Shown here: piece by piece, positions 3,356 to 28,410 of the stretch
How the letters are laid out: each line of letters begins with the position of its first letter
Numbering within the stretch: the stretch's first letter is position 1
Source: a virus
DNA: 36,924 nucleotides
IMG/VR virus record: IMGVR_UViG_3300042731_004526
Span: 1 to 36,924 of that record
Reading direction: 5' to 3' (one strand)
Notes under the pieces: generated by a model
Database searches by the model: none
Seen by the model: only the letters and a program-made list of their open reading frames with translations
What the model was told of the DNA's origin: nothing
Program-made: the position numbers and the translations under genes

Positions 3356-3587
3356 CTTCTAATCCCGGCAGCATTATGCATCCGGCTCGCTTCATTTCCT
3401 CATCAGGCGGTAATGGTTGAAACTCATAGCCCTGTTCCTTGCCCCAAGCTAGCCATTCGCCGTAATTAAACAATTCAGCCTTAGCTTTATTTTTTGTATG
3501 ATGCTGACGATCCGGTCCTAGCCAATCATCAAAGTCTGAAAAGTAAAATCGCCCCTTTTGATGATCGGAATATTCTCCATCAAGCAT
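3348..3587 (-). CDS. Hypothetical protein, 79 aa
   Basis: The start chosen is ATG 3587, which overlaps the stop of the large helicase-methyltransferase gene (TGA at 3580-3582) and has an excellent AAGGAGG site. A longer frame extends upstream, but that part is only an alternative reading of the helicase C-terminus. The product is acidic and aromatic (FYFSDFDDWLGPD, YGEWLAWGKEQGYEFQPL). No family is recognised. Tight coupling suggests it works with or alongside the methyltransferase. Confidence 0.6.
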   Translation of the reverse strand: MLDGEYSDHQKGRFYFSDFDDWLGPDRQHHTKNKAKAELFNYGEWLAWGKEQGYEFQPLPPDEEMKRAGCIMLPGLEDA

Positions 3588-6105
3588 TGATAACCTCCTT
3601 TTTTGGCTCCGTTCCGTTGCCGTTTTCGGCCAGCTCCGCCTCCTCCTGTAGGGCCAGCCAATCAAACAGCGTCGGCGCCATTGCTTTTTGCTCCGCCTCC
3701 TGGCAATATTTGAGGCCAGCAACGAAATATTCATAATTTAATTCGATCCCATAAGCCCGCCGCCCTAATTCGATCGCCTTGGCCGGTACGGTGAACAAGC
3801 CGGCGAAGGGGTCTAGCACCAAATCATTCGGGTTTGAATAGAGCCGGATCGCTCGCTCTACGATGTCAAACGGTAGCGGGCAAATATGATTAGCTTGTTG
3901 CTTGCGCCGCTGTTCGCTATTGAGTACCCGCATGAAGGTAATGTCATCCCAGACCCATTCCGAAATACTGACCGGTGGCTCGTAAAAGAACGTAGCAGGC
4001 AAATTACCGGCTTCTTCTTTCACTTCGAGCCGTTCGACGTGTGCGTCGTGATCGTAAGCCTCCGCCGGCGTCAGCAGCGTATTGCCACCGGAGCGCCAGA
4101 AGCTGTGAGCGTCGATTTGCCAGCGGGCCCGGCTGTACTCCGCCTTGTCTTTGGTGACCGGTCTATCGGCCCGTTGATCCTGCATATCGGACGGCTGCTT
4201 GCGGAATAAGAGCAGATATTCGGGTAAGCCGCTGCCCATCTTGGAAGCATCTTTACTCATCTCCGTCCAACCCAGGCGATAGGTGCTGTTATTCTCCCGG
4301 ACGACATCGGTCACGATCGTTCGCCGACCTTCGTACATAAAGCCGTGCTTTTTGAAGGCGAATACGCACTCATCCGAGAATGGCGCAATCTCCATAAAGC
4401 CGTGTGACGTTTGATGCCCGTACAACACCCGGTCCTTAACGTGAACGGCTGCGCAGCGTCCCGGCTCTAGCACTCGCAACAGATTTGAAATAAGAAAGTC
4501 CATTTGCTGCCAAAACTCCGAGTTAGATGGATTGTGCCCAAAATCCTCATATTGGGTCGTGTACTCGTAATGATTGCCGAATGGGATCGAGGTGTGGATC
4601 AAGCCGACCGAGTTATCCGGCAGCCGCTCCAATTCCAAAACGCAATCATTATTGACCGCCGTGAATAGCTGCCCGCTCGCCTCCTCTCGCTCCAAGCCGA
4701 TATTGCGAGATAGCTCCTTGTCAAGCGTCGCTTGTACCAGGCCGTATTCCTTGACGATCTTTTGCATCTTTTCGACCAGCTTATCGTGCTGCGTCCATTT
4801 GCGCCGCAGCGTATTAACCACCTCATCCTCGCTCTCAGCGTAGATGATATGGACGTCGACCGGCTGATATTGTTGGAAACGATGCGTCCGGTGAATAGCC
4901 TGGATAAAGTCTTGAAACTTGTATCCGACGCCCAAAAAGATATTGGAGTGGCAATATCGCTGAAAGTTGCAGCCAGAGCCGGCGATGCGGGGCTTCGTGG
5001 CCAGGATCGGTATTTCGCCGTGGGAGAAGTCGAGAATACGCTGCTCCCGCAGGTCCAGAGCCTGCGAGCCGTACACGGAGGTGCTATCCGGCACCGCTCG
5101 CTCGATTGCCCGCCGCTCATCTTCCAGGTCGTGCCACAGCAGCCAATGGCGATCAGGATTACTGCCCATAATCTCTTGCATCTTTTCGATTCGGGCCTCA
5201 ATCGTCGCTCGCTTTTCGGCGCTGGCCTCGCGCACTCCGCCGGCCGCGTTCAAAAAGAGGCGATGCTGGCCGCGATTATCGGTTTGATCCCAGGCTCTGG
5301 TTTGATCCACTTCCAGCCGATGCCAGGTGACATTGAGCTTAGGCAGATCGTAACCTTCATCGCTGTAGCCCAGATCAGACGGCTTGTAAACAAAGAGCGC
5401 CCAACTTGCCACCCACAACCAGAACTTTTTTTCGTGCTGAGGGTGCAAGGTCAAATTCCCGGCCTTGTTTACGTCCCGTTGGAAAAAGCGGGTCAGCGCC
5501 TGGCCAGTGTCCATAATCCCCAACCAGTTGGCGTAATAGATTAGCTCACGGTAGCGATTGGGGGAGGGTGTGGCCGTACAAACCCATTTATACTCAATAT
5601 CGGCAAACAGGTTCAAAAAGACTTGATAAGTTTTGCTACCTAGCGAGCGCAGTACCGAGCCTTCGTCCAGACTGGCCCCGGCGATGTCGTGATTGGCCGG
5701 CGTGATGTCGCCGTCCCGCAGCCGTTCGTAATTGGTGATGAGATAAGGCGTTTGGGCCGCTTCTATTTCGGCGTCGGTTCGCACGTACTCGAATTGAACA
5801 CCCAGCCGTGGCCCGTCCTCCTCCGAGAATTGATGCTTAATTCCCAGAGGGCAAACTACCAGATATTTGCCACCGGTGCGCTGATGGACCAGCCGGGCCA
5901 GTTCGACCTGGATATGAGTTTTGCCCAGACCAAAAGACATAGCGATTAAGCCGTGCCCCAGCCGGGCAGCCCAGATAATAGCATCGGTCTGATGCGGAAA
6001 AGTCGAAGGGTGCAGCTCATGTGGCTGCACATCGAAGCCGGTGGTATGCACTACGTCGATTTTGGTTTTTAACCATTCTTGATAATCAGCGATTAAATCA
6101 CTCAT
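3580..6105 (-). CDS. Fusion of SF2 (SNF2-like) helicase and beta-class DNA methyltransferase
   Basis: The 841-residue protein joins two enzymes. Residues ~35-460 form a superfamily 2 helicase/translocase: SFGLGKT (57-63) is Walker A, LDEGS (146-150) is the motif II variant, TATPSPN (177-183) is motif III and QAIHRTHRF (402-410) is motif VI. Residues ~480-800 form a permuted (beta-class) N4-cytosine/N6-adenine methyltransferase: the catalytic motif IV is HTSIPFG (504-510) in place of the common TSPPY, and the SAM-binding motif I is DPFAG (765-769) followed by GIELNYEYF. The TSIPF variant is, from memory, typical of phage-borne helicase-methyltransferases. It probably methylates phage DNA against restriction, perhaps coupled to translocation. 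No nuclease domain is visible. Genes on both sides overlap it by a few bases. Confidence 0.85.
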   Translation of the reverse strand: MSDLIADYQEWLKTKIDVVHTTGFDVQPHELHPSTFPHQTDAIIWAARLGHGLIAMSFGLGKTHIQVELARLVHQRTGGKYLVVCPLGIKHQFSEEDGPRLGVQFEYVRTDAEIEAAQTPYLITNYERLRDGDITPANHDIAGASLDEGSVLRSLGSKTYQVFLNLFADIEYKWVCTATPSPNRYRELIYYANWLGIMDTGQALTRFFQRDVNKAGNLTLHPQHEKKFWLWVASWALFVYKPSDLGYSDEGYDLPKLNVTWHRLEVDQTRAWDQTDNRGQHRLFLNAAGGVREASAEKRATIEARIEKMQEIMGSNPDRHWLLWHDLEDERRAIERAVPDSTSVYGSQALDLREQRILDFSHGEIPILATKPRIAGSGCNFQRYCHSNIFLGVGYKFQDFIQAIHRTHRFQQYQPVDVHIIYAESEDEVVNTLRRKWTQHDKLVEKMQKIVKEYGLVQATLDKELSRNIGLEREEASGQLFTAVNNDCVLELERLPDNSVGLIHTSIPFGNHYEYTTQYEDFGHNPSNSEFWQQMDFLISNLLRVLEPGRCAAVHVKDRVLYGHQTSHGFMEIAPFSDECVFAFKKHGFMYEGRRTIVTDVVRENNSTYRLGWTEMSKDASKMGSGLPEYLLLFRKQPSDMQDQRADRPVTKDKAEYSRARWQIDAHSFWRSGGNTLLTPAEAYDHDAHVERLEVKEEAGNLPATFFYEPPVSISEWVWDDITFMRVLNSEQRRKQQANHICPLPFDIVERAIRLYSNPNDLVLDPFAGLFTVPAKAIELGRRAYGIELNYEYFVAGLKYCQEAEQKAMAPTLFDWLALQEEAELAENGNGTEPKKEVINA

Positions 6106-10495: not shown

Positions 10496-10801
10496 CTAAT
10501 CAACATTGCGGCGCTTTTCCAGAATGGTCAAGGCCCATTCGACCGCGCCGGCTTCGAGGTAATCATTGGCCAGAATTGCAAAGGCAAAATCAACTAAAGG
10601 GTCATTCAATTTGAAGCCGAAAACTTTCTCAATCTTAAGACGTGTGCTAGTATGCTGTTTACGGGCTTCCCGCTCGAAACTAGAAATCGTCCGACGCCCT
10701 AATTTAGCCAGGTGTGCTAAGTCCTCCTGACTCCAGCCCCTTACCAATCGAATAACTTTCACTTTCCTGCCATCTGAAATTGCCATTTCCGAAATCACCA
10801 T
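10496..10801 (-). CDS. Cro-like XRE-family DNA-binding protein
   Basis: The helix-turn-helix is clear: KVIRLVRGWSQEDLAHLAKL and GRRTISSFEREARKQ, typical of the XRE/Cro-CI fold. The likely start is ATG 10801 (MVISEMAISDG) or the internal ATG at 10786; a longer upstream reading would run through the promoter and is rejected. The C-terminal ~45 residues (NDPLVDFAFAILANDYLEAG...) are helical and may dimerise. It is transcribed leftward from the strong promoter at 10820-10849 towards the early genes, divergent from the repressor at 10904, a position equivalent to lambda cro. Confidence 0.7.
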   Translation of the reverse strand: MVISEMAISDGRKVKVIRLVRGWSQEDLAHLAKLGRRTISSFEREARKQHTSTRLKIEKVFGFKLNDPLVDFAFAILANDYLEAGAVEWALTILEKRRNVD

Positions 10802-10819
10802 AGTTTTGATTGCAAAAAT

Positions 10820-10857: not shown

Positions 10858-10891
10858 CAAAAATTGATATCAGAATCACAATAGTTTAAGG

Positions 10892-10897
10892 TATAAT
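10892..10897 (+). promoter_or_regulatory. -10 box of a leaderless repressor promoter
   Basis: A perfect TATAAT is followed by six bases and then ATG 10904, so transcription would begin at or next to the start codon. No good -35 is found at 16-18 bases upstream, as expected for a weak or activated repressor-maintenance promoter. No Shine-Dalgarno sequence is present. Confidence 0.6.
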
Positions 10898-10903
10898 TTA
10901 GTT

Positions 10904-11272
10904 ATGCAAACAGATTTTGTGATTTGGTTGACCGAGGAAATGAATGAGCGCGGTTGGTCAAATAGTGAATTGGCTAGGCGTGCGGAGATTGTACCTTCGA
11001 CAATATCATCAGTAATTAGCGGTAGAAATCAACCGGGGCTTGAGCTTTGCATCGGCGTGGCGCGGGCTTTTAATTATCCGCCTGAGCGCGTATTGAGGCA
11101 GGCCGGTTTATTGCCCGACCAGGGTGGCAATCAAGTAATTTATAATAAATTGATCGAAGTGGCTAAGAATCTGGAACAGACTGAGCTTGAGAATTCCTAT
11201 CAGTATCTTTTGTGGCGTTATCAAGTTCAGCAGCAAAAAAAGCAAAAACCCCCGACCGCAGAAGATCAATAA
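10904..11272 (+). CDS. CI-like XRE-family repressor, short form
   Basis: The 122-residue protein has an XRE helix-turn-helix at residues ~18-55: GWSNSELARRAEIVPSTISS then VISGRNQPGLELCIGVARAF, followed by NYPPERVLRQAGLLP, a pattern common in phage and mobile-element repressors. The C-terminal half is helical and Gln/Lys-rich (NLEQTELENSYQYLLWRYQV) and lacks a LexA-like S24 peptidase domain, so induction cannot be RecA-cleavage as in lambda. It is divergent from the Cro-like gene and its message is probably leaderless. It most likely maintains lysogeny. Confidence 0.75.
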   Translation: MQTDFVIWLTEEMNERGWSNSELARRAEIVPSTISSVISGRNQPGLELCIGVARAFNYPPERVLRQAGLLPDQGGNQVIYNKLIEVAKNLEQTELENSYQYLLWRYQVQQQKKQKPPTAEDQ

Positions 11273-19404: not shown

Positions 19405-20265
19405 TTATAAACTTTCCCACGTCACCGTGCCGCTGGTATCCGTTCGCATTTCCGCCGCATTATCGGTATACAGTACCCAGCTTCGCCATTCCGCCGTACC
19501 ATTTTGCCAGGTGCCGATAGCAAACAATCGATCCCCCACAAAATGAAGTTTGCGCCAATCAATTGAGCCGACATCGGGCGCGGGATCATCCGCCCAGCTA
19601 TTGGTGATCGTTCCCGGCGTCTTGTCGGCCCAACTCGCCCCGCCATCATTCGATACGTGAATGGTGTATTGATTGGCCCGCCAAACCGTTTTGCTGGCCT
19701 CCGGTAGCGCCTGCGTCGCCGGGTCGATCTTGACATCATAGGTGGTCAAATCGCTGCCTGACAAACCATCGTTTTTATCCGTCCAGGTAATCGTGCCTTC
19801 GGTGTTGGTATAGAATACGCCGCTGGTCGTGGCTGCGTAGCCGGCGAACGTTTCATCCATTACCACCAATTCTTTCCGGGCCGGTGTCGATTGTAGCCCG
19901 GTGCCATCGGTCACGATCAATTGGATGGTATAAGTCCCGGCCGTGGAATAATTGAGCGTGCCGGCGGAGACGGTGCCGCTGGCGGGGGAGTGGCTCTCGA
20001 AGGTCCAGGCGTAAGAGGCAATCGAGCCGTCCGGGTCATAGGAGGCGGTGCCGGTATAATCGACATCACCATTGACCAAAGCCGGATTGGGATCAAGCTC
20101 GATGATGGCCACCGGCTCTTTGCCGGCGCTGAGGCCCAGGGCGTTGGGGTCATCGCAGCAAAAAAAGCGGGGCGTGAAAACCGGCCCCAATTCGCTATCA
20201 AATTTCCAGGCCGTGGCGTCGGCCAATTTGGTGACAAGATCATCACTGAACGGCGTTGTAGCCAT
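19405..20265 (-). CDS. PKD-domain minor tail protein, 286 aa
   Basis: Residues ~50-135 form a PKD/Ig-like domain: GTASYDPDGSIASYAWTFES and then STAGTYTIQLIVTDGTG are diagnostic. The C-terminal ~150 residues (VFYTNTEGTITWTDKNDGLS, HVSNDGGASWADKTPG) are BNR/sialidase-like repeats without an apparent active site. Phages use PKD and Ig-like domains to bind cell-surface sugars weakly. It overlaps the next gene's region by a shared base and belongs to the tail-tip set. Confidence 0.7.
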   Translation of the reverse strand: MATTPFSDDLVTKLADATAWKFDSELGPVFTPRFFCCDDPNALGLSAGKEPVAIIELDPNPALVNGDVDYTGTASYDPDGSIASYAWTFESHSPASGTVSAGTLNYSTAGTYTIQLIVTDGTGLQSTPARKELVVMDETFAGYAATTSGVFYTNTEGTITWTDKNDGLSGSDLTTYDVKIDPATQALPEASKTVWRANQYTIHVSNDGGASWADKTPGTITNSWADDPAPDVGSIDWRKLHFVGDRLFAIGTWQNGTAEWRSWVLYTDNAAEMRTDTSGTVTWESL

Positions 20266-20618
20266 TAGATCACCACCAATACCCGCATTTCCACGCCCCG
20301 CACCAGGCCGCCCGGCGGCGCGTCAATCGCCCGGATTCGCTTCGATACCACGCCGCTGTTATAAGTCGTGCCGCTGGCCTCTTTCATCGTTTCAAAGCGG
20401 GCGGGCAAAACGATGCTGGTCAAAGTTTGATTTTCGTAGGTTGACCAATTCCAATTGACCGTGCCGCCGTTATCGACCGGGGCGCGCAGCGTCACTGCTT
20501 CATAAGCGCCAATCGCCTCGGAGCCGTCCAACTTGCCGCCGATGATATTGGACTCCCAATCGACGCTGGCCGGCTGGGGGTTCAGGGTGGTGCCGTTGAT
20601 CTGTACTGTTACCGCCAT
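20265..20618 (-). CDS. Tail-tip protein, 117 aa
   Basis: ATG 20618 (MAVTVQINGTTLNPQPASVD) is chosen; the longer reading to 20672 runs through the opposite-strand gene. The protein is beta-rich and lies directly after the tape measure gene in transcript order, the place of distal-tail proteins. It is shorter than usual Dit proteins. Identity rests on position. Confidence 0.55.
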   Translation of the reverse strand: MAVTVQINGTTLNPQPASVDWESNIIGGKLDGSEAIGAYEAVTLRAPVDNGGTVNWNWSTYENQTLTSIVLPARFETMKEASGTTYNSGVVSKRIRAIDAPPGGLVRGVEMRVLVVI

Positions 20619-20621
20619 AAG

Positions 20622-20630
20622 TGATATAAT
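20622..20630 (+). promoter_or_regulatory. Extended -10 promoter for the small membrane-protein gene
   Basis: TGATATAAT fits TGnTATAAT. Six bases separate the TATAAT from ATG 20637, so the mRNA would be leaderless. No strong -35 is present at the usual distance. Confidence 0.6.
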
Positions 20631-20636
20631 TCCTGT

Positions 20637-20807
20637 ATGACTAAAGAATTGAAACGCCTGCAGCCTAAGCAAAATGAGCTAAATTTCCGCCAGGGCTTCA
20701 ACTTTGGAATGGGTTTGTTCACCGCTCTAATCCTGTTCCTGTTTCTCATCATTCCAATGCTGCTTTGCGGCGTGGCGGTGATGCTGGCCGCCATCGGCCA
20801 AACCTAA
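20637..20807 (+). CDS. Small plus-strand membrane protein (moron), 56 aa
   Basis: This frame reads MTKELKRLQPKQNELNFRQG followed by a long hydrophobic stretch (FTALILFLFLIIPMLLCGVA and beyond), giving one or two transmembrane helices behind a basic, cytoplasmic N-terminus. It is on the opposite strand to the tail operon, has its own extended -10 promoter and no Shine-Dalgarno. It fits exactly between the tail-tip gene (starts 20618) and the tape measure gene (stops 20804), with overlapping stops. This is the pattern of a moron expressed in lysogens. Small membrane morons often mediate superinfection exclusion; that role here is inference. Confidence 0.65.
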   Translation: MTKELKRLQPKQNELNFRQGFNFGMGLFTALILFLFLIIPMLLCGVAVMLAAIGQT

Positions 20808-22618
20808 GCCCGGCTCAATTCCGCCCGCAGCATCTGCACGACCATCTGGATCGCCTGCTCGCCGCCGTCGCCCTGCGTGCTGACGCTGGCGGAAAAGCCG
20901 CCAAAATTGAAATTGTTGGTCGTACCGCCGCCGCTGGGCACGCTGACCGCCTGGCCTAGCTCGGGCATATCATCAATCGCCCCGGCAATCCCCCGCAGCC
21001 CCAGCTCGAAGGGCGTCGGGCTGCCCGGTACTAGCCAATCCGGTAAGCCGATGTCCTGCTCCAGTGTCTCCACAAACGACGGCCAGGCGTCACGGATGAC
21101 GACGATGGCGTCATACATCTTGTCGAAGCCGTCCACAACGCGAGAAAAGGGGTTGAGAATGGTCCAAAAAACATCTTGTAAAATCTTCACGGCTTCGCTG
21201 AGTATATCAACCTCAATGCCCACTCCGGCCAATTGTCCATCAAAATAATCGAAAATACCGAAAGCGCCATTAATAATTCCCGATACCAATTGAATAGATG
21301 TCCCGGTCGCTTGCAAAGACGGTCCCAGCGAATTGAGCGTTGAGTCAATCGAAGACATCACCGTATCGACCGATGACATATCTTCGTTTAGGATGCCCAT
21401 ACTTTCGGCCAGATCAGCCACCGGGCCGATCAGATTATCTCGAATGGACATTCCCAGCTCCGCCGTGGGTGCGTTGGCCTCTTTGGAACGGTCCAGAAAT
21501 TCGGTAATATTTTCTGCCGCCGTTCTGACTGTTGGATTAAGGCCGTCGCCCAATTCGATTTTTAGCGTTTCGGCAACACCGTCCAAAATTTCCAACGTCC
21601 CGGCCAGGTTATCCATTCGCTGCGCTGCGGCTTCCGCCGCGTCGGTTTGGGCCATTGCCGCTTGCAATTCGCCAAATCCCTCCGCCCCCAGATCCATCAA
21701 CCCCACCGCCGCCCGCATTGCGTCGGTGCCAAAGATGGTGGCCAGGGCTTGGTTGCGCTGTTCCTCGGAAAGATCGCTTAAGGCATTATCTAATACTTGG
21801 CTAATCTCTACCATTGGCCTGAGATTGCCCGCCGCATCAAAAAATTGATTTGCCCCATCTTCGGTAATAATACCCAAGCGGGTCATTGTTTTGGCTGCTT
21901 TTTCGCTTGACGGTACCAACCGCTGTAGCATCGTTTTGAACGAAGTCCCGGCGTCACTACCGCTGGCAAATAGCGGCGCAATCCCGGCAATGACGGTGTT
22001 AAAATCGTCAAATTCAACGCCCACCGAGGCGGCCACGCCGCCGGCCTGAGCCAGCGCCAGGCGGTAATCATCAACCGAAAATTTGGAATTAGTGACGACC
22101 GAAGTGATCCCGTTGACGGCTTTGTCCATCTCTTTGGCTTCGATGTTGAACAGCATCATGCTATCGGTAGCGATATCCGCCGCCAGCGAAAAATCACCGC
22201 CGGTACTATTGGCGAGTAAAACGGTTGACCGGGCCGCGCCGTCCATCACATCTTGCAAATCGAGGCCATTGCGGGCCAGCATTTCGATGGCGTCCGCTGC
22301 CTCGAAGGAGGATACCTTGAGATTGGGATCGATGCCCAGCTCTTTGACCAGTTCCTTGATGTCGGCAATCTCATCCGCCGTCGCGCCGGATACCGCCCCA
22401 ACCGATGATAATTGCGCCTCCAGATCGGCGGATTTTCGCACGCTATCGACCACGGCGTCGCTCATCGTCCGCAAGCCGTTTTCGATGGCATTGATGCCCC
22501 TTTGAACGCCGACATTAGCCAGGCGATTAAGCATCGTTTCGCTGGTTTTAATGCCGCGCTCAAACCCCCGCTTGTCGAGGTCTAGCACGGCTTGCAAGCT
22601 GGCAACAGTTACGGCCAT
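20804..22618 (-). CDS. Tail tape measure protein
   Basis: The 604-residue protein begins MAVTVASLQAVLDLDKRGFE, followed by coiled-coil sequence and a TP901-type tape measure core: ADLEAQLSSVGAVSG, VKELGIDPNLKVSSFEAADA, TSFKTMLQRLVPSSEKAAKT and ALATIFGTDAMRAAVGLMDL are hallmarks. A hydrophobic stretch near residues 440-475 may insert into the host membrane. From the usual ratio of tail length to residues, the tail would be short to medium. It starts inside the end of the frameshifted tail chaperone gene. Confidence 0.85.
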   Translation of the reverse strand: MAVTVASLQAVLDLDKRGFERGIKTSETMLNRLANVGVQRGINAIENGLRTMSDAVVDSVRKSADLEAQLSSVGAVSGATADEIADIKELVKELGIDPNLKVSSFEAADAIEMLARNGLDLQDVMDGAARSTVLLANSTGGDFSLAADIATDSMMLFNIEAKEMDKAVNGITSVVTNSKFSVDDYRLALAQAGGVAASVGVEFDDFNTVIAGIAPLFASGSDAGTSFKTMLQRLVPSSEKAAKTMTRLGIITEDGANQFFDAAGNLRPMVEISQVLDNALSDLSEEQRNQALATIFGTDAMRAAVGLMDLGAEGFGELQAAMAQTDAAEAAAQRMDNLAGTLEILDGVAETLKIELGDGLNPTVRTAAENITEFLDRSKEANAPTAELGMSIRDNLIGPVADLAESMGILNEDMSSVDTVMSSIDSTLNSLGPSLQATGTSIQLVSGIINGAFGIFDYFDGQLAGVGIEVDILSEAVKILQDVFWTILNPFSRVVDGFDKMYDAIVVIRDAWPSFVETLEQDIGLPDWLVPGSPTPFELGLRGIAGAIDDMPELGQAVSVPSGGGTTNNFNFGGFSASVSTQGDGGEQAIQMVVQMLRAELSRA

Positions 22619-23084
22619 TTCTTCACTTTCTTTGGTTTCATTAAGGCATTTTCGGCTTCGTGAATTTGCAAGATACTATCCTGATCGATAACGCCCAGCC
22701 GGTCGATATAATCAAAAGTCCAGCCGGTAAGCAAGGCAATTTTAGCCCGGCGGTAAAGATCGGCGGTCCAGCCCGGCAAAAGCTCATTGTACTTTGCCGC
22801 CAGGTAGACCGCCTCTCCTATTTTTTTTGACCCACCAGGCCCAGCGCCTCGGTCAGCGCCGCATCCACTTCGCCGGAGTCATTCAGGCCCAGGTTAAAAT
22901 AAGCCTCGGCGCTGATCTCCTCACCATAAGGCCAGGTCACGATTACCCGCTCCGCCAACTCTGCGGTTAGCTGGTCGCGACGATAGAGATCGCCCGCCGC
23001 CCCTTGCAGGTTGGCTACAAAATCAAGATATTCCTTGCGGGTGATCCGGTTTAAGTCAATTTTGAATCCGTCAAGTTCAAACAT
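22609..23084 (-). CDS. Tail assembly chaperone, -1 frameshift fusion product
   Basis: A -1 shift at the A8 run (22828-22821) moves translation from ...GLVGQKK into IGEAVYLAAKYNELLPGWTA and on to LMKPKKVKKWP, stopping at 22609. The joined protein would be ~158 residues. The extended frame stays open for 70 codons and ends only after the tape measure start, exactly the layout of lambda gpG/gpGT and other siphovirus tail chaperones, where the long form recruits the tape measure protein. The zero-frame stop (TAG) directly follows the slippery run. The sequence supports the shift strongly, although its efficiency cannot be read. Confidence 0.75.
22818..23084 (-). CDS. Tail assembly chaperone, short (unshifted) product
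   Basis: The 88-residue zero-frame protein MFELDGFKIDLNRITRKEYL...DAALTEALGLVGQKK is a helical, acidic chaperone-like protein. It lies between the tail tube gene (23086) and the tape measure gene, the conserved position of the gpG-type chaperone. It is the majority product if frameshifting is partial. Confidence 0.75.
   Translation of the reverse strand: MFELDGFKIDLNRITRKEYLDFVANLQGAAGDLYRRDQLTAELAERVIVTWPYGEEISAEAYFNLGLNDSGEVDAALTEALGLVGQKK
22821..22828 (-). promoter_or_regulatory. A8 slippery site for -1 frameshifting
   Basis: In zero frame the codons are CAA AAA AAA TAG, so the X_XXY_YYZ heptamer is A_AAA_AAA with a stop codon immediately after. Both tRNAs can re-pair fully one base back. 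A GGAGAGG sequence follows. Confidence 0.7.
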
Positions 23085-25211: not shown

Positions 25212-25820
25212 TTAGCCTCCGATAATCACTCCCACTTTTCCTTCTTGATAATGCACCGGCTGCAACTCTGCCAGCGCCCGCTCCCAGGCCAATGCAGTCG
25301 GCTCATAATCCAGATCATCGACCACGATATAGCCGCCCGGCTTGAGCAGTTCATAACTCAAGATAATATCCCGATAGCCGCCTTCGGTCGTGTGATCGCC
25401 GTCCACCAGGATCAAATCAAAGCTACCTATTAAATCGGGTAACACCTGTTTGCTGTCACCCGTAATCAAATTCACATTGCCTTTATGCCCCATTAGGGCG
25501 ATTTGTTGCTCGACAAATTCCGGGCCCGGATTGTCCGCCCCGCCGTAGCCAGGTACCCATAGATCAATGCCGGTCAGATTGCAGGTCCTGCACCGTTGGG
25601 CCACCACCGCCATCGAAAAACCGCGGCGAACACCAATCTCAAGATATTCTTTCGGCTTGGCCGTTTGCGCCAGAAAGGACAAGACCAGCCAGATATTAGC
25701 CTCTTTTTTGTCCAGCATCTCCAAAATCAATTTTTTGTGCGGATCATCGGCCAGCTTATTAAAAATCGCTCTGACCGCTTTTTCATTGGTTTTGGTCCAG
25801 CATCGTTTGAAAATATCCAT
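25212..25820 (-). CDS. Class I SAM-dependent methyltransferase (family 24-like)
   Basis: ATG 25820 shares a base with the preceding stop (TAATG). The 202-residue protein shows EYLEIGVRRGFSMAVVAQRC (SAM-binding loop, motif I), GIDLW at the second strand, SFDLILVDGDHTTEGGYRDI (catalytic/metal-site region, DGDH) and LLKPGGYIVVDDLDY (motif after strand 5). This matches the CmcI/TylF-type and Methyltransf_24 group, which methylate small molecules and sugars, not DNA. With two glycosyltransferases and an acetyltransferase beside it, sugar O-methylation is the best inference. Confidence 0.8.
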   Translation of the reverse strand: MDIFKRCWTKTNEKAVRAIFNKLADDPHKKLILEMLDKKEANIWLVLSFLAQTAKPKEYLEIGVRRGFSMAVVAQRCRTCNLTGIDLWVPGYGGADNPGPEFVEQQIALMGHKGNVNLITGDSKQVLPDLIGSFDLILVDGDHTTEGGYRDIILSYELLKPGGYIVVDDLDYEPTALAWERALAELQPVHYQEGKVGVIIGG

Positions 25821-26473
25821 TAATCCACTCCGTAAATATTCGCCAGCGTCGTCACTTTCGCTTTCATCGGCTGCGCCGGCACCCCGATCCACGTTTCGCC
25901 CGCCGGCACGTCTTTCGTCACCACCGCCCCGGCTCCGACCGTCGCCCCTTCGCCAATGTTGTGCCCTTCGATGATCGTGGCCCCGGCTCCAATCAAAACG
26001 CCATCGCCAATCGTCACCGAGCCGCTAATCCCGGCGTTGTGGTTGATGACGCAATAATCGCCAATGCTGACATCGTGCCCAATCGTCACACCCATATTGA
26101 CGTGCGTATAAAGGCCGATTTGAACATCGGGCATAATCACCCCACCGGGCATTATGGTCGTGCCGCCTCGCAGTTTGGGCTTGCCTAAAAGCTGGCAGCC
26201 AGGATGGATCAAACTAGGGAATTTGTGCGGCGAGGTCCGGTAAAATTCGCGGATCTTGCGCCGGGTGGCCGGCGTACCGTTGGCGATGACGCAATCCTGC
26301 GGGCGCTGGCTCACAAACCAGTCATCATTGCCAATCACGGGCAGGCCCATAAAATGCTCATTAAAATCGATCCATTCCGCCACGAAGCCCAGTACGCTAA
26401 AGCCCATCGTGCGAACCATCCCGTAAATCTCTTTGGCCATCCCGCCGGTGCCGATGATAATTAGATCGCTCAT
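25820..26473 (-). CDS. Hexapeptide-repeat acetyltransferase (NeuD/PglD-like)
   Basis: ATG 26473 (MSDLIIIGTGGMAKEIYGMV) is chosen because the sequence begins with the N-terminal Rossmann-like strand and GxGG loop typical of NeuD/PglD; upstream frame is a shadow. Residues ~95-205 form a left-handed beta-helix of hexapeptide repeats (IGHDVSIGDYCVINHNAGIS, VTIGDGVLIGAGATI, IGEGATVGAGAVVTKDVPAG), ending in the usual WIGVPAQPMK. His88/His115-type residues in VNMGVTIGHD and INHNAG fit the catalytic His of the family. These enzymes acetylate amino-sugars or sialic acids with acetyl-CoA. It is one of four surface-glycan genes here. Confidence 0.85.
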   Translation of the reverse strand: MSDLIIIGTGGMAKEIYGMVRTMGFSVLGFVAEWIDFNEHFMGLPVIGNDDWFVSQRPQDCVIANGTPATRRKIREFYRTSPHKFPSLIHPGCQLLGKPKLRGGTTIMPGGVIMPDVQIGLYTHVNMGVTIGHDVSIGDYCVINHNAGISGSVTIGDGVLIGAGATIIEGHNIGEGATVGAGAVVTKDVPAGETWIGVPAQPMKAKVTTLANIYGVD

Positions 26474-26510
26474 TATGATTGCTTTCTGCTGCTTTCGTTT
26501 GCTTTCATTC

Positions 26511-27233
26511 TTATTCAATACCCGCAATGCTGGGGTGCAATACGTGCAAGGTCGGGTCGGCAAAAATCTTATAACCCTGCTCACGGGCCTGTTTGCACAT
26601 TCCCAGCACCGCCTCCCGCTCGCACAACCGCAGCCCGCCCTCGGTGATGCACTCCATCTTGAACAGTACCACGCTGCCCACGCTTTCAACCTCGAACGGC
26701 GCGTCGCCAAATCGGGTGAAATACCAGGCCGGCGGCGCCGGCTCGAAAAGTTTGCCCTGATGCCGGAAGGCCCACACGTCATAAAAGCGGAGATATCCGT
26801 TGACATTGATCCAGATAAGCGGGGCGAAGATGTCAGCGGCGGCGGGCTTGCGGGTGATAAGTTCGGTCAAGAGGTCGGGTTGAAATAGCAGATCGGCCTC
26901 CAGCATCAGGGCGTAATCACCCCAGCCATCCCGGGCAATTTGCTCCCAGTTGCGATTGCCCGTTAAGGCCATTGCCCGCATCCGCTCGGGGCGGGTGGTG
27001 TGCCATTGGCGCTCAAGCCCGGTGTCATATTTGGTGACCGTGATCCGCTCATCTTCAATCGCCCAGGCTTGCAACTCGGCCAGCGTGTCATCGGTCGAAT
27101 CGCCTTCGCTCAGGTAGAGCCGTAATAACTTGGCCGGATAATCAAGCTGCTCGATCCGGCTCCGGTATAACTCTATCGGCGGGCCGGCCATATCTCTGAA
27201 TTGGGACCACACCGAGATTTTGGGCAAAGTCAT
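26511..27233 (-). CDS. GT-A family glycosyltransferase
   Basis: ATG 27233 gives MTLPKISVWSQFRDMAGPPI, a proper first strand; a much longer upstream reading is a shadow of the next gene. YRSRIEQLDYPAKLLRLYLS, then EGDSTDDT, matches the family 2-like GT-A start, and GDYALMLEADLLFQPDLLTE carries the metal-binding acidic motif (EAD in place of DxD). A C-terminal FRHQGKLFEPAPPAWYFTRF and a terminal HVLHP follow. It overlaps the end of the GT4 gene by 92 bases. It would transfer a sugar to an acceptor, plausibly a capsid protein. Confidence 0.75.
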   Translation of the reverse strand: MTLPKISVWSQFRDMAGPPIELYRSRIEQLDYPAKLLRLYLSEGDSTDDTLAELQAWAIEDERITVTKYDTGLERQWHTTRPERMRAMALTGNRNWEQIARDGWGDYALMLEADLLFQPDLLTELITRKPAAADIFAPLIWINVNGYLRFYDVWAFRHQGKLFEPAPPAWYFTRFGDAPFEVESVGSVVLFKMECITEGGLRLCEREAVLGMCKQAREQGYKIFADPTLHVLHPSIAGIE

Positions 27234-28410
27234 AAACTTTTTTCCCGCCGTTGACCAGGTTTTCAATGTCAGCCAGGGCCGGCTTCCAGTAGTGATTGAA
27301 CACGGTATCGATGTCGAAGCGGAGCGCCCCGTTGTGGGCCTTGCGCTGCAATTTGACATTATCCCGCTCCCGGTAAGCCTCCTCCAGCACATCGGCAACG
27401 CTATCGACGTAGACCCGCTTTCTCCAGCTTTCCGCCCCGGCGTACCAATCGAGCTGGCCATCCAATTTCCAGCCGCCGAACAAAAGCTCATTGGTCGTGG
27501 CGAAGTCGGTGGCCGCAATCGGGCAGCCGCACATTTGCGCCTCGACCAAGGGCAGGCCGAAGCCTTCCGATTTGCACGGGTTGAGTAGCAAATCGCTGGC
27601 CCGGTAGACATTGGCCATATACTTCTCATCCAACATCCCGTTGATGTAGCCATATTGATCCGGTTGGATGATACTCTTTTCGATGCCCAGCCGCTTGGCG
27701 ATGTTGGCCGGCTTGATCGGGCCGCCCCAATCGGTATGAATGTACAGGATCGCCTCCGGCCGTTTTTCAAGGAACTTGGCGAAGCCCAGCATCGCCTCGC
27801 TAAAGCCTTTGCGGTCGGAGCCGTCTTTATTGGCCGCGACCATCGTCACCAGGAAATCATAATCCCGCCCCACCTTGAACTGCTCGCGGGCCGCCATCTT
27901 GTCGCCTGGGCAAAAAGTGTTTTTTGGCACGCCGCAGGGGATATAGTGCGCCTTAACACCCGCCCGCTCCAGTACCTCTACGCCCCACTTGGAATAGACC
28001 ATCGGATAGATGGCCGGTTCCAGGGCTTGAATGATGCCATCGGGCGCGGGGTCGATGTCCACGGGCAGCCAGGGCGCAAAATTGGTTTTTCCGGTGATAT
28101 GAGGGGGAAATACAAAGACATCACAAACCGTGATGCACACCTCGGCCCGGCTATGCCGGTAATGCTCAAGTAGCATCGCCTCGCCGTAAGTGTTGCCGCC
28201 TACGGCGTGGTGTGGGAGAATGGTCACGGTCTGCGGTTTGTCGCCGTTGCGCCCGGCAATCGTCCAGGGCATCGGTTGCCCGGAGAGGCCATACCAAACG
28301 CCCACCGTAACGTGATGACCGGCCCGCACGATGGAAGGTACTGTACGGGCGGTCAACACGCTATACGATGAGGGGGACCAGGGTACTGTCGAGTGCCAGT
28401 ATATCCGCAT
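27142..28410 (-). CDS. GT-B (GT4-like) glycosyltransferase
   Basis: The 422-residue protein begins MRIYWHSTVPWSPSSYSVLT, a typical first GT-B strand and nucleotide-sugar loop. The C-terminal domain has FLVTMVAANKDGSDRKGFSE, ASDLLLNPCKSEGFGLPLVE and then AQMCGCPIAATDFATTNEL, the family's ExFGxxxxE motif (EGFGLPLVEA) and adjacent Gly-rich loop. These enzymes use NDP-sugars. The gene is the first of the cassette, four bases after the decoration-like protein's stop. Direct coupling with capsid genes suggests virion glycosylation. Confidence 0.85.
   Translation of the reverse strand: MRIYWHSTVPWSPSSYSVLTARTVPSIVRAGHHVTVGVWYGLSGQPMPWTIAGRNGDKPQTVTILPHHAVGGNTYGEAMLLEHYRHSRAEVCITVCDVFVFPPHITGKTNFAPWLPVDIDPAPDGIIQALEPAIYPMVYSKWGVEVLERAGVKAHYIPCGVPKNTFCPGDKMAAREQFKVGRDYDFLVTMVAANKDGSDRKGFSEAMLGFAKFLEKRPEAILYIHTDWGGPIKPANIAKRLGIEKSIIQPDQYGYINGMLDEKYMANVYRASDLLLNPCKSEGFGLPLVEAQMCGCPIAATDFATTNELLFGGWKLDGQLDWYAGAESWRKRVYVDSVADVLEEAYRERDNVKLQRKAHNGALRFDIDTVFNHYWKPALADIENLVNGGKKVYDFAQNLGVVPIQRYGRPADRVIPEPDRAA

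Follow-up and report, generated by a model that had tools for sequence, protein, structure and literature searches.

Within the tail region of this virus, on the strand opposite the flanking tail genes, lies an open reading frame (ORF) of 56 codons that is very probably a gene and a moron, a call well supported by its coding statistics, by a promoter element of its own and by homologous frames in related phages. Superinfection exclusion at the membrane appears to be the likeliest single function of its product, with another membrane function next, and we hold with roughly even confidence the full reading in which this is a reverse moron of a temperate siphovirus, switched on in the prophage from its own extended -10 element and encoding an inner-membrane protein that excludes superinfecting phages. 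All coordinates refer to the window, the whole 36,924 nt stretch of viral DNA that was analysed (IMG/VR record IMGVR_UViG_3300042731_004526), unless a relative is named, and the features discussed are collected in Table 1.

Table 1. Positions of the putative moron, its neighbours and the repressor region in the window.
Feature	Position	Strand	Basis
Extended -10 element TGATATAAT, 6 nt before the moron ATG	20622..20630	+	Exact match; antisense TATAAT at ORF-bearing tail gaps
Putative moron, gene for a 56-aa small membrane protein	20637..20807	+	ORF, coding score, L013 homologue, one long predicted helix
Small conserved tail-region gene P0003, divergent neighbour	20265..20618	-	L007 homologue 70% identical; nine-member family
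Tail tape-measure protein gene (TMP), convergent neighbour	20804..22618	-	Pfam PhageMin_Tail, PHROG tape measure
PKD-domain tail-region protein P0005, query for relatives	19405..20265	-	Pfam PKD; eight relative contigs
Repressor-like HTH gene, TATAAT + 6 nt + ATG start	10904..11272	+	
-10 element AGGTATAAT of the repressor gene	10889..10897	+	
Cro-like HTH gene divergent from the repressor, start codon uncertain	10496..10819	-	Pfam HTH_3

A reverse-strand gene and its promoter element

The 56-codon ORF fills the gap between TMP and P0003, which both lie on the minus strand, and runs in the opposite orientation, beginning 18 nt from the start codon of P0003 (117-aa product) in a head-to-head arrangement and ending tail to tail with TMP, where the two stop codons overlap. 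In relatives L010, L011, L012, L014, L015 and L016, TMP adjoins P0003 at a distance of 0-52 nt, and in the window, L007 and L013 a small ORF parts the two; that is, an extra gene stands here between genes that are neighbours in relatives.

Exact TGNTATAAT sites number five on both strands of the window, and one of them is TGATATAAT, which ends 6 nt before the ATG of the ORF; for this reason the start is probably leaderless, with the predicted transcription start at or beside the A of the ATG. No -35 sequence resembling TTGACA was found upstream of the element. An extended -10 and a leaderless start had both been proposed in the first-pass annotation, and they are supported by this exact spacing and by the identical start of the repressor gene. 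As regards the usual attributes of a moron, a promoter of its own is present by sequence, as an extended -10 that is absent where the ORF is absent, and a terminator of its own is not, since no intrinsic terminator was found behind the gene in the window and none that was convincing in the relatives.

The predicted membrane protein

Translation of 20637-20807 on the plus strand gives MTKELKRLQPKQNELNFRQGFNFGMGLFTALILFLFLIIPMLLCGVAVMLAAIGQT, followed by a stop. The first 19 residues carry K3, K6, R7, K11 and R18 against E4 and E14, and the helix after this basic head reaches a peak 18-residue Kyte-Doolittle mean of 3.03. AlphaFold, supplied with a four-sequence alignment, predicted a single helix spanning residues 9-55 with a mean pLDDT of 77.6, and hardly any residues lie outside the membrane other than the head. 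From charge only, we infer a topology with the basic head in the cytoplasm and the helix in the membrane. Both the ORF and its hydropathy thus agree with the earlier description of an opposite-strand membrane protein, a basic head followed by a hydrophobic helix, encoded between two tail genes.

Used as a direct query, the protein returned no relatives among viral contigs or phage records, and the Pfam and PHROG libraries gave insignificant scores only, with no family that fits; across Pfam, PHROG and phage records there was likewise no sequence match to any known exclusion protein or family. An Ltp-type lipoprotein was considered and rejected, as a lipobox requires A, G or S before the Cys and the window protein reads PMLLC, with L at -1. 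By inspection, the proteins of L007 (LLAC), L013 (MLGC) and L015 (FLAC) would fit a lipobox, but the residues after the Cys remain hydrophobic.

Antisense membrane ORFs in related phages

Using P0003 and P0005 as queries we identified eight relative contigs, and rescans with wider alignments gave the identical eight. In three of these eight, gap translations and a systematic scan revealed that a tail gap contains a TATAAT followed by a small membrane ORF in antisense orientation; the ORF is located between TMP and P0003 in L007 and L013 and between P0003 and P0005 in L015, while the other five have no antisense membrane ORF within these tail gaps. The ATG follows TATAAT by exactly 6 nt in L013 and L015, as in the window, and in L007 a Shine-Dalgarno sequence, AGGAGGG, stands between TATAAT and the start. 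An antisense TATAAT occurs within 60 nt of the P0003 or P0005 start at all four starts that have a membrane ORF, compared with none of the 14 that do not, and this descriptive contrast argues for a promoter and against a side effect of ribosome-site composition. In the P0003-P0005 homologue gap of L011 (5460-5572), the place corresponding to that of the L015 gene, there are short tandem repeats, e.g. GATCAGTAATCAGT.

In a single comparison, the window and L013 proteins were 40% identical (E 1e-6), and their score was reached by none of 5000 shuffles that kept the hydrophobic pattern, while that of the L007-L015 pair was reached by one of 5000. Scores across the pairs were weak, being reached by 84-304 of 5000 shuffles. 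Common ancestry of the two pairs with each other is therefore likely but not proven. All four proteins have a Cys within the helix in common, and the two members of the L007-L015 pair sit in separate tail gaps, which would be expected of a mobile gene.

When the window-L013 pair was used as a query, only the contig of L013 itself was returned. A scan of a genome collection gave unrelated PKD domains only, and a tail-gene query against 400 genomes of one phylum (Chloroflexota) gave no match. Relatives L002-L006, identified through TMP, differ in tail layout and have no informative gap, and the sequence of L001 stops at the TMP stop. The much lower conservation of TMP compared with the neighbouring genes led us to consider replacement of the moron together with TMP, which we rejected: most relatives have a conserved TMP C-terminus, and the moron is present or absent irrespective of TMP identity.

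Coding evidence against chance

Codon usage in the plus frame at 20637-20807 scored 0.31, where the phage's own genes score 0.05-0.47, and the competing minus-strand ORF at 20609-20794 scored -0.07. Across 35 aligned codons of the window and L013 genes there were 18, 12 and 22 differences at codon positions 1, 2 and 3, respectively. In 5000 dinucleotide shuffles of each gap, TATAAT with a start and a transmembrane ORF arose in 0% (window), 0.04% (L007), 0.1% (L013) and 0% (L015), and a transmembrane ORF of whatever kind in 0.84% of window gap shuffles; the gaps had been picked after the window was seen, which makes these figures and the TATAAT counts descriptive, each being strong alone.

Two explanations would take the coding function away from this frame. 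The ORF could have arisen by chance, or a minus-strand tail gene could occupy the gap instead, given that a 61-aa minus-strand ORF fills it too and that ORFs of at least 50 aa are common, with 216 in the window. We give this very little credence, as the poor coding score of the minus-strand ORF, together with stops that break the minus-sense frames across the gap in L007 and L015, speaks against a minus-strand gene there, and the plus-strand ORF with its promoter recurs in relatives and is missing from shuffles. Alternatively, the transcript and not the peptide could be functional, as an antisense RNA that damps tail-gene expression in the prophage, the ORF being incidental; the promoter does aim into TMP at its 3' end, and the search for a terminator gave none. 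This too is improbable, if not to quite the same degree, as the coding frame is conserved (in its codon-position pattern, in homologous proteins and in a membrane helix that is always there) and the L015 gene sits in another gap, not near TMP.

The repressor region and probable expression in the prophage

The repressor-like gene and the moron share a strand and an identical start layout, with lytic and structural genes on the opposite strand. Four TATAAT-N5-7-ATG sites occur in the window, and only those of the repressor and the moron open plus-strand genes. In relative G010 the repressor starts 7 nt after TACAAT, and the lambda cI repressor mRNA is leaderless. Because strand and start type are common to the moron and the repressor, we infer that the moron would be expressed in the prophage. 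Together with the coding statistics and the homologous frames that have their own TATAAT in relatives, this upholds the view of the first-pass annotation that the gene is a short reverse-strand moron; conservation of the frame in relatives had been named there as a check, and the frame proved to be conserved.

An integrase is present in four of the five longer close relatives, and no integrase match was found in the window. In G010, P0007, a membrane protein with a Cys that is encoded between the repressor and integrase genes, was examined as a possible relative of the moron and rejected, its helix scoring no better than shuffles (694-1741 of 5000). The same contig also encodes, between repressor and integrase (L131, 3454-4335, minus strand), a protein of 293 aa in which an N-terminal membrane helix is combined with a Pro/Thr-rich stalk; this is the usual location for lysogenic conversion genes, and the protein has no Pfam match.

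Discussion

We propose that placement against the tail operon would leave the moron active in the prophage and silent during lytic growth. In a lysogen its promoter would fire to give a leaderless mRNA, and the 56-aa protein would insert into the membrane by its helix, leaving the basic head in the cytoplasm. There it would hinder the DNA of related superinfecting phages from entering, probably through interference with the step at which the incoming tape-measure protein engages the membrane. On induction, transcription of the tail operon would cross the moron in the opposite sense and shut it off, and the phage would therefore not hinder itself. It is conceivable, though we think it doubtful, that membrane exclusion proteins with a leaderless start and reverse orientation form a mobile family in tail gaps near TMP, with the orientation itself as the switch. 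If so, the repressor-side strand would express them in lysogens and the late antisense tail transcript would silence them in lytic growth; a separate immunity factor would therefore be unneeded.

Exclusion has to be weighed against other functions that a lysogen-expressed membrane protein could have. The gene may be a real moron that acts instead in host envelope physiology, on a partner membrane protein or in a stress response, and this is a tentative but serious possibility, as the gene, promoter and strand evidence fits it equally and the sequence indicates no particular target; the point against it is one of precedent only, the best studied small membrane morons beside TMP being exclusion proteins. 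Type I toxins are small and have a single hydrophobic helix, and the 56-aa protein is similar in both respects. A role as such a toxin in prophage maintenance, repressed by antisense RNA from the tail operon or from another source, would gain from the fact that the opposing operon would yield antisense RNA across the entire gene. It is nevertheless quite unlikely: the tail operon should be silent in the lysogen, when the antitoxin is needed, the strong consensus promoter and leaderless start are unlike the usual translation-restricted toxin mRNA, and the gap showed no dedicated antisense promoter.

Of known systems, the exclusion reading recalls HK97 gp15, which in the HK97 layout is a 62-aa moron directly beside the TMP gene. 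This is a predicted inner-membrane protein, and hybrids with the HK022 tail tube and TMP genes escape it, just as exclusion by TP-J34 Ltp is overcome by TMP changes (P22 SieA paper, PMC10883804). Like gp15, which is prophage-expressed, the window gene encodes a tiny single-helix membrane protein and lies between tail genes beside TMP. It differs in that gp15 is on the tail-operon strand and the upstream side of TMP, has a Shine-Dalgarno sequence and a putative terminator, and consists of an N-terminal helix and then a polar tail, and no sequence similarity between the two proteins was seen, nor was there any to another known exclusion protein. HK97 gp23, annotated as a 'reverse moron product', is likewise an antisense gene inserted in the tail operon; however, its 86-aa product lacks a membrane helix, and the gene comes with a putative terminator, overlaps in part with another moron and occupies a different gap.

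TP-J34 Ltp and Tuc2009 Sie2009 are also small membrane-associated prophage proteins, both of which block DNA injection (PMC10883804), although Ltp differs in being a lipoprotein whose outer domain is folded. JBD26 Tab is a small prophage-expressed moron directed at TMP (PMC10884400), but is encoded in the late operon between the terminase genes, prevents tails from being assembled and needs a separate anti-Tab. Fc02 olg1 is a prophage-expressed gene opposite lytic genes and has exclusion activity (PMC9936078); in contrast to the window gene, it belongs to the immunity region, where the repressor promoter drives it, overlaps an opposing gene completely and encodes a soluble protein. Reverse orientation and small membrane exclusion proteins are thus already known, and the moron differs from the known kinds in its leaderless, repressor-like start, its lack of a terminator and its new protein family.

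Gene callers readily overlook wrong-strand genes of 30-60 codons, which are revealed here by the TATAAT and start-codon signature and by comparison with relatives. The leaderless, repressor-like start may offer a simple sequence rule for lysogen-expressed genes and, if exclusion is the true function, the tail-gene gaps of temperate phages would be a place to seek unannotated defence proteins.

Other genes of the window and its relatives

Four phages have, upstream of TMP (window 22619-22830; L007 3999-4240; L013 3692-3901; L016 3744-3977), a first frame that terminates at an A-rich run (AAAAAAAA(T)AG) and a second that remains open as far as the start of TMP, the pattern that a frameshifted tail assembly chaperone would be expected to show. 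Between the head and tail genes (window 25212-28410, minus strand) there is a sugar-modification cassette consisting of a group 1 glycosyltransferase, a hexapeptide (PglD-like) transferase and a methyltransferase, with two glycosyltransferases and a hexapeptide transferase at the corresponding place in a relative contig (L132, 5077-7438, minus strand); the cassette may modify the virion or the host surface. The minus strand at 3580-6105 encodes an 841-aa protein in which a SNF2-type helicase domain is fused to an N6/N4 DNA methylase domain.
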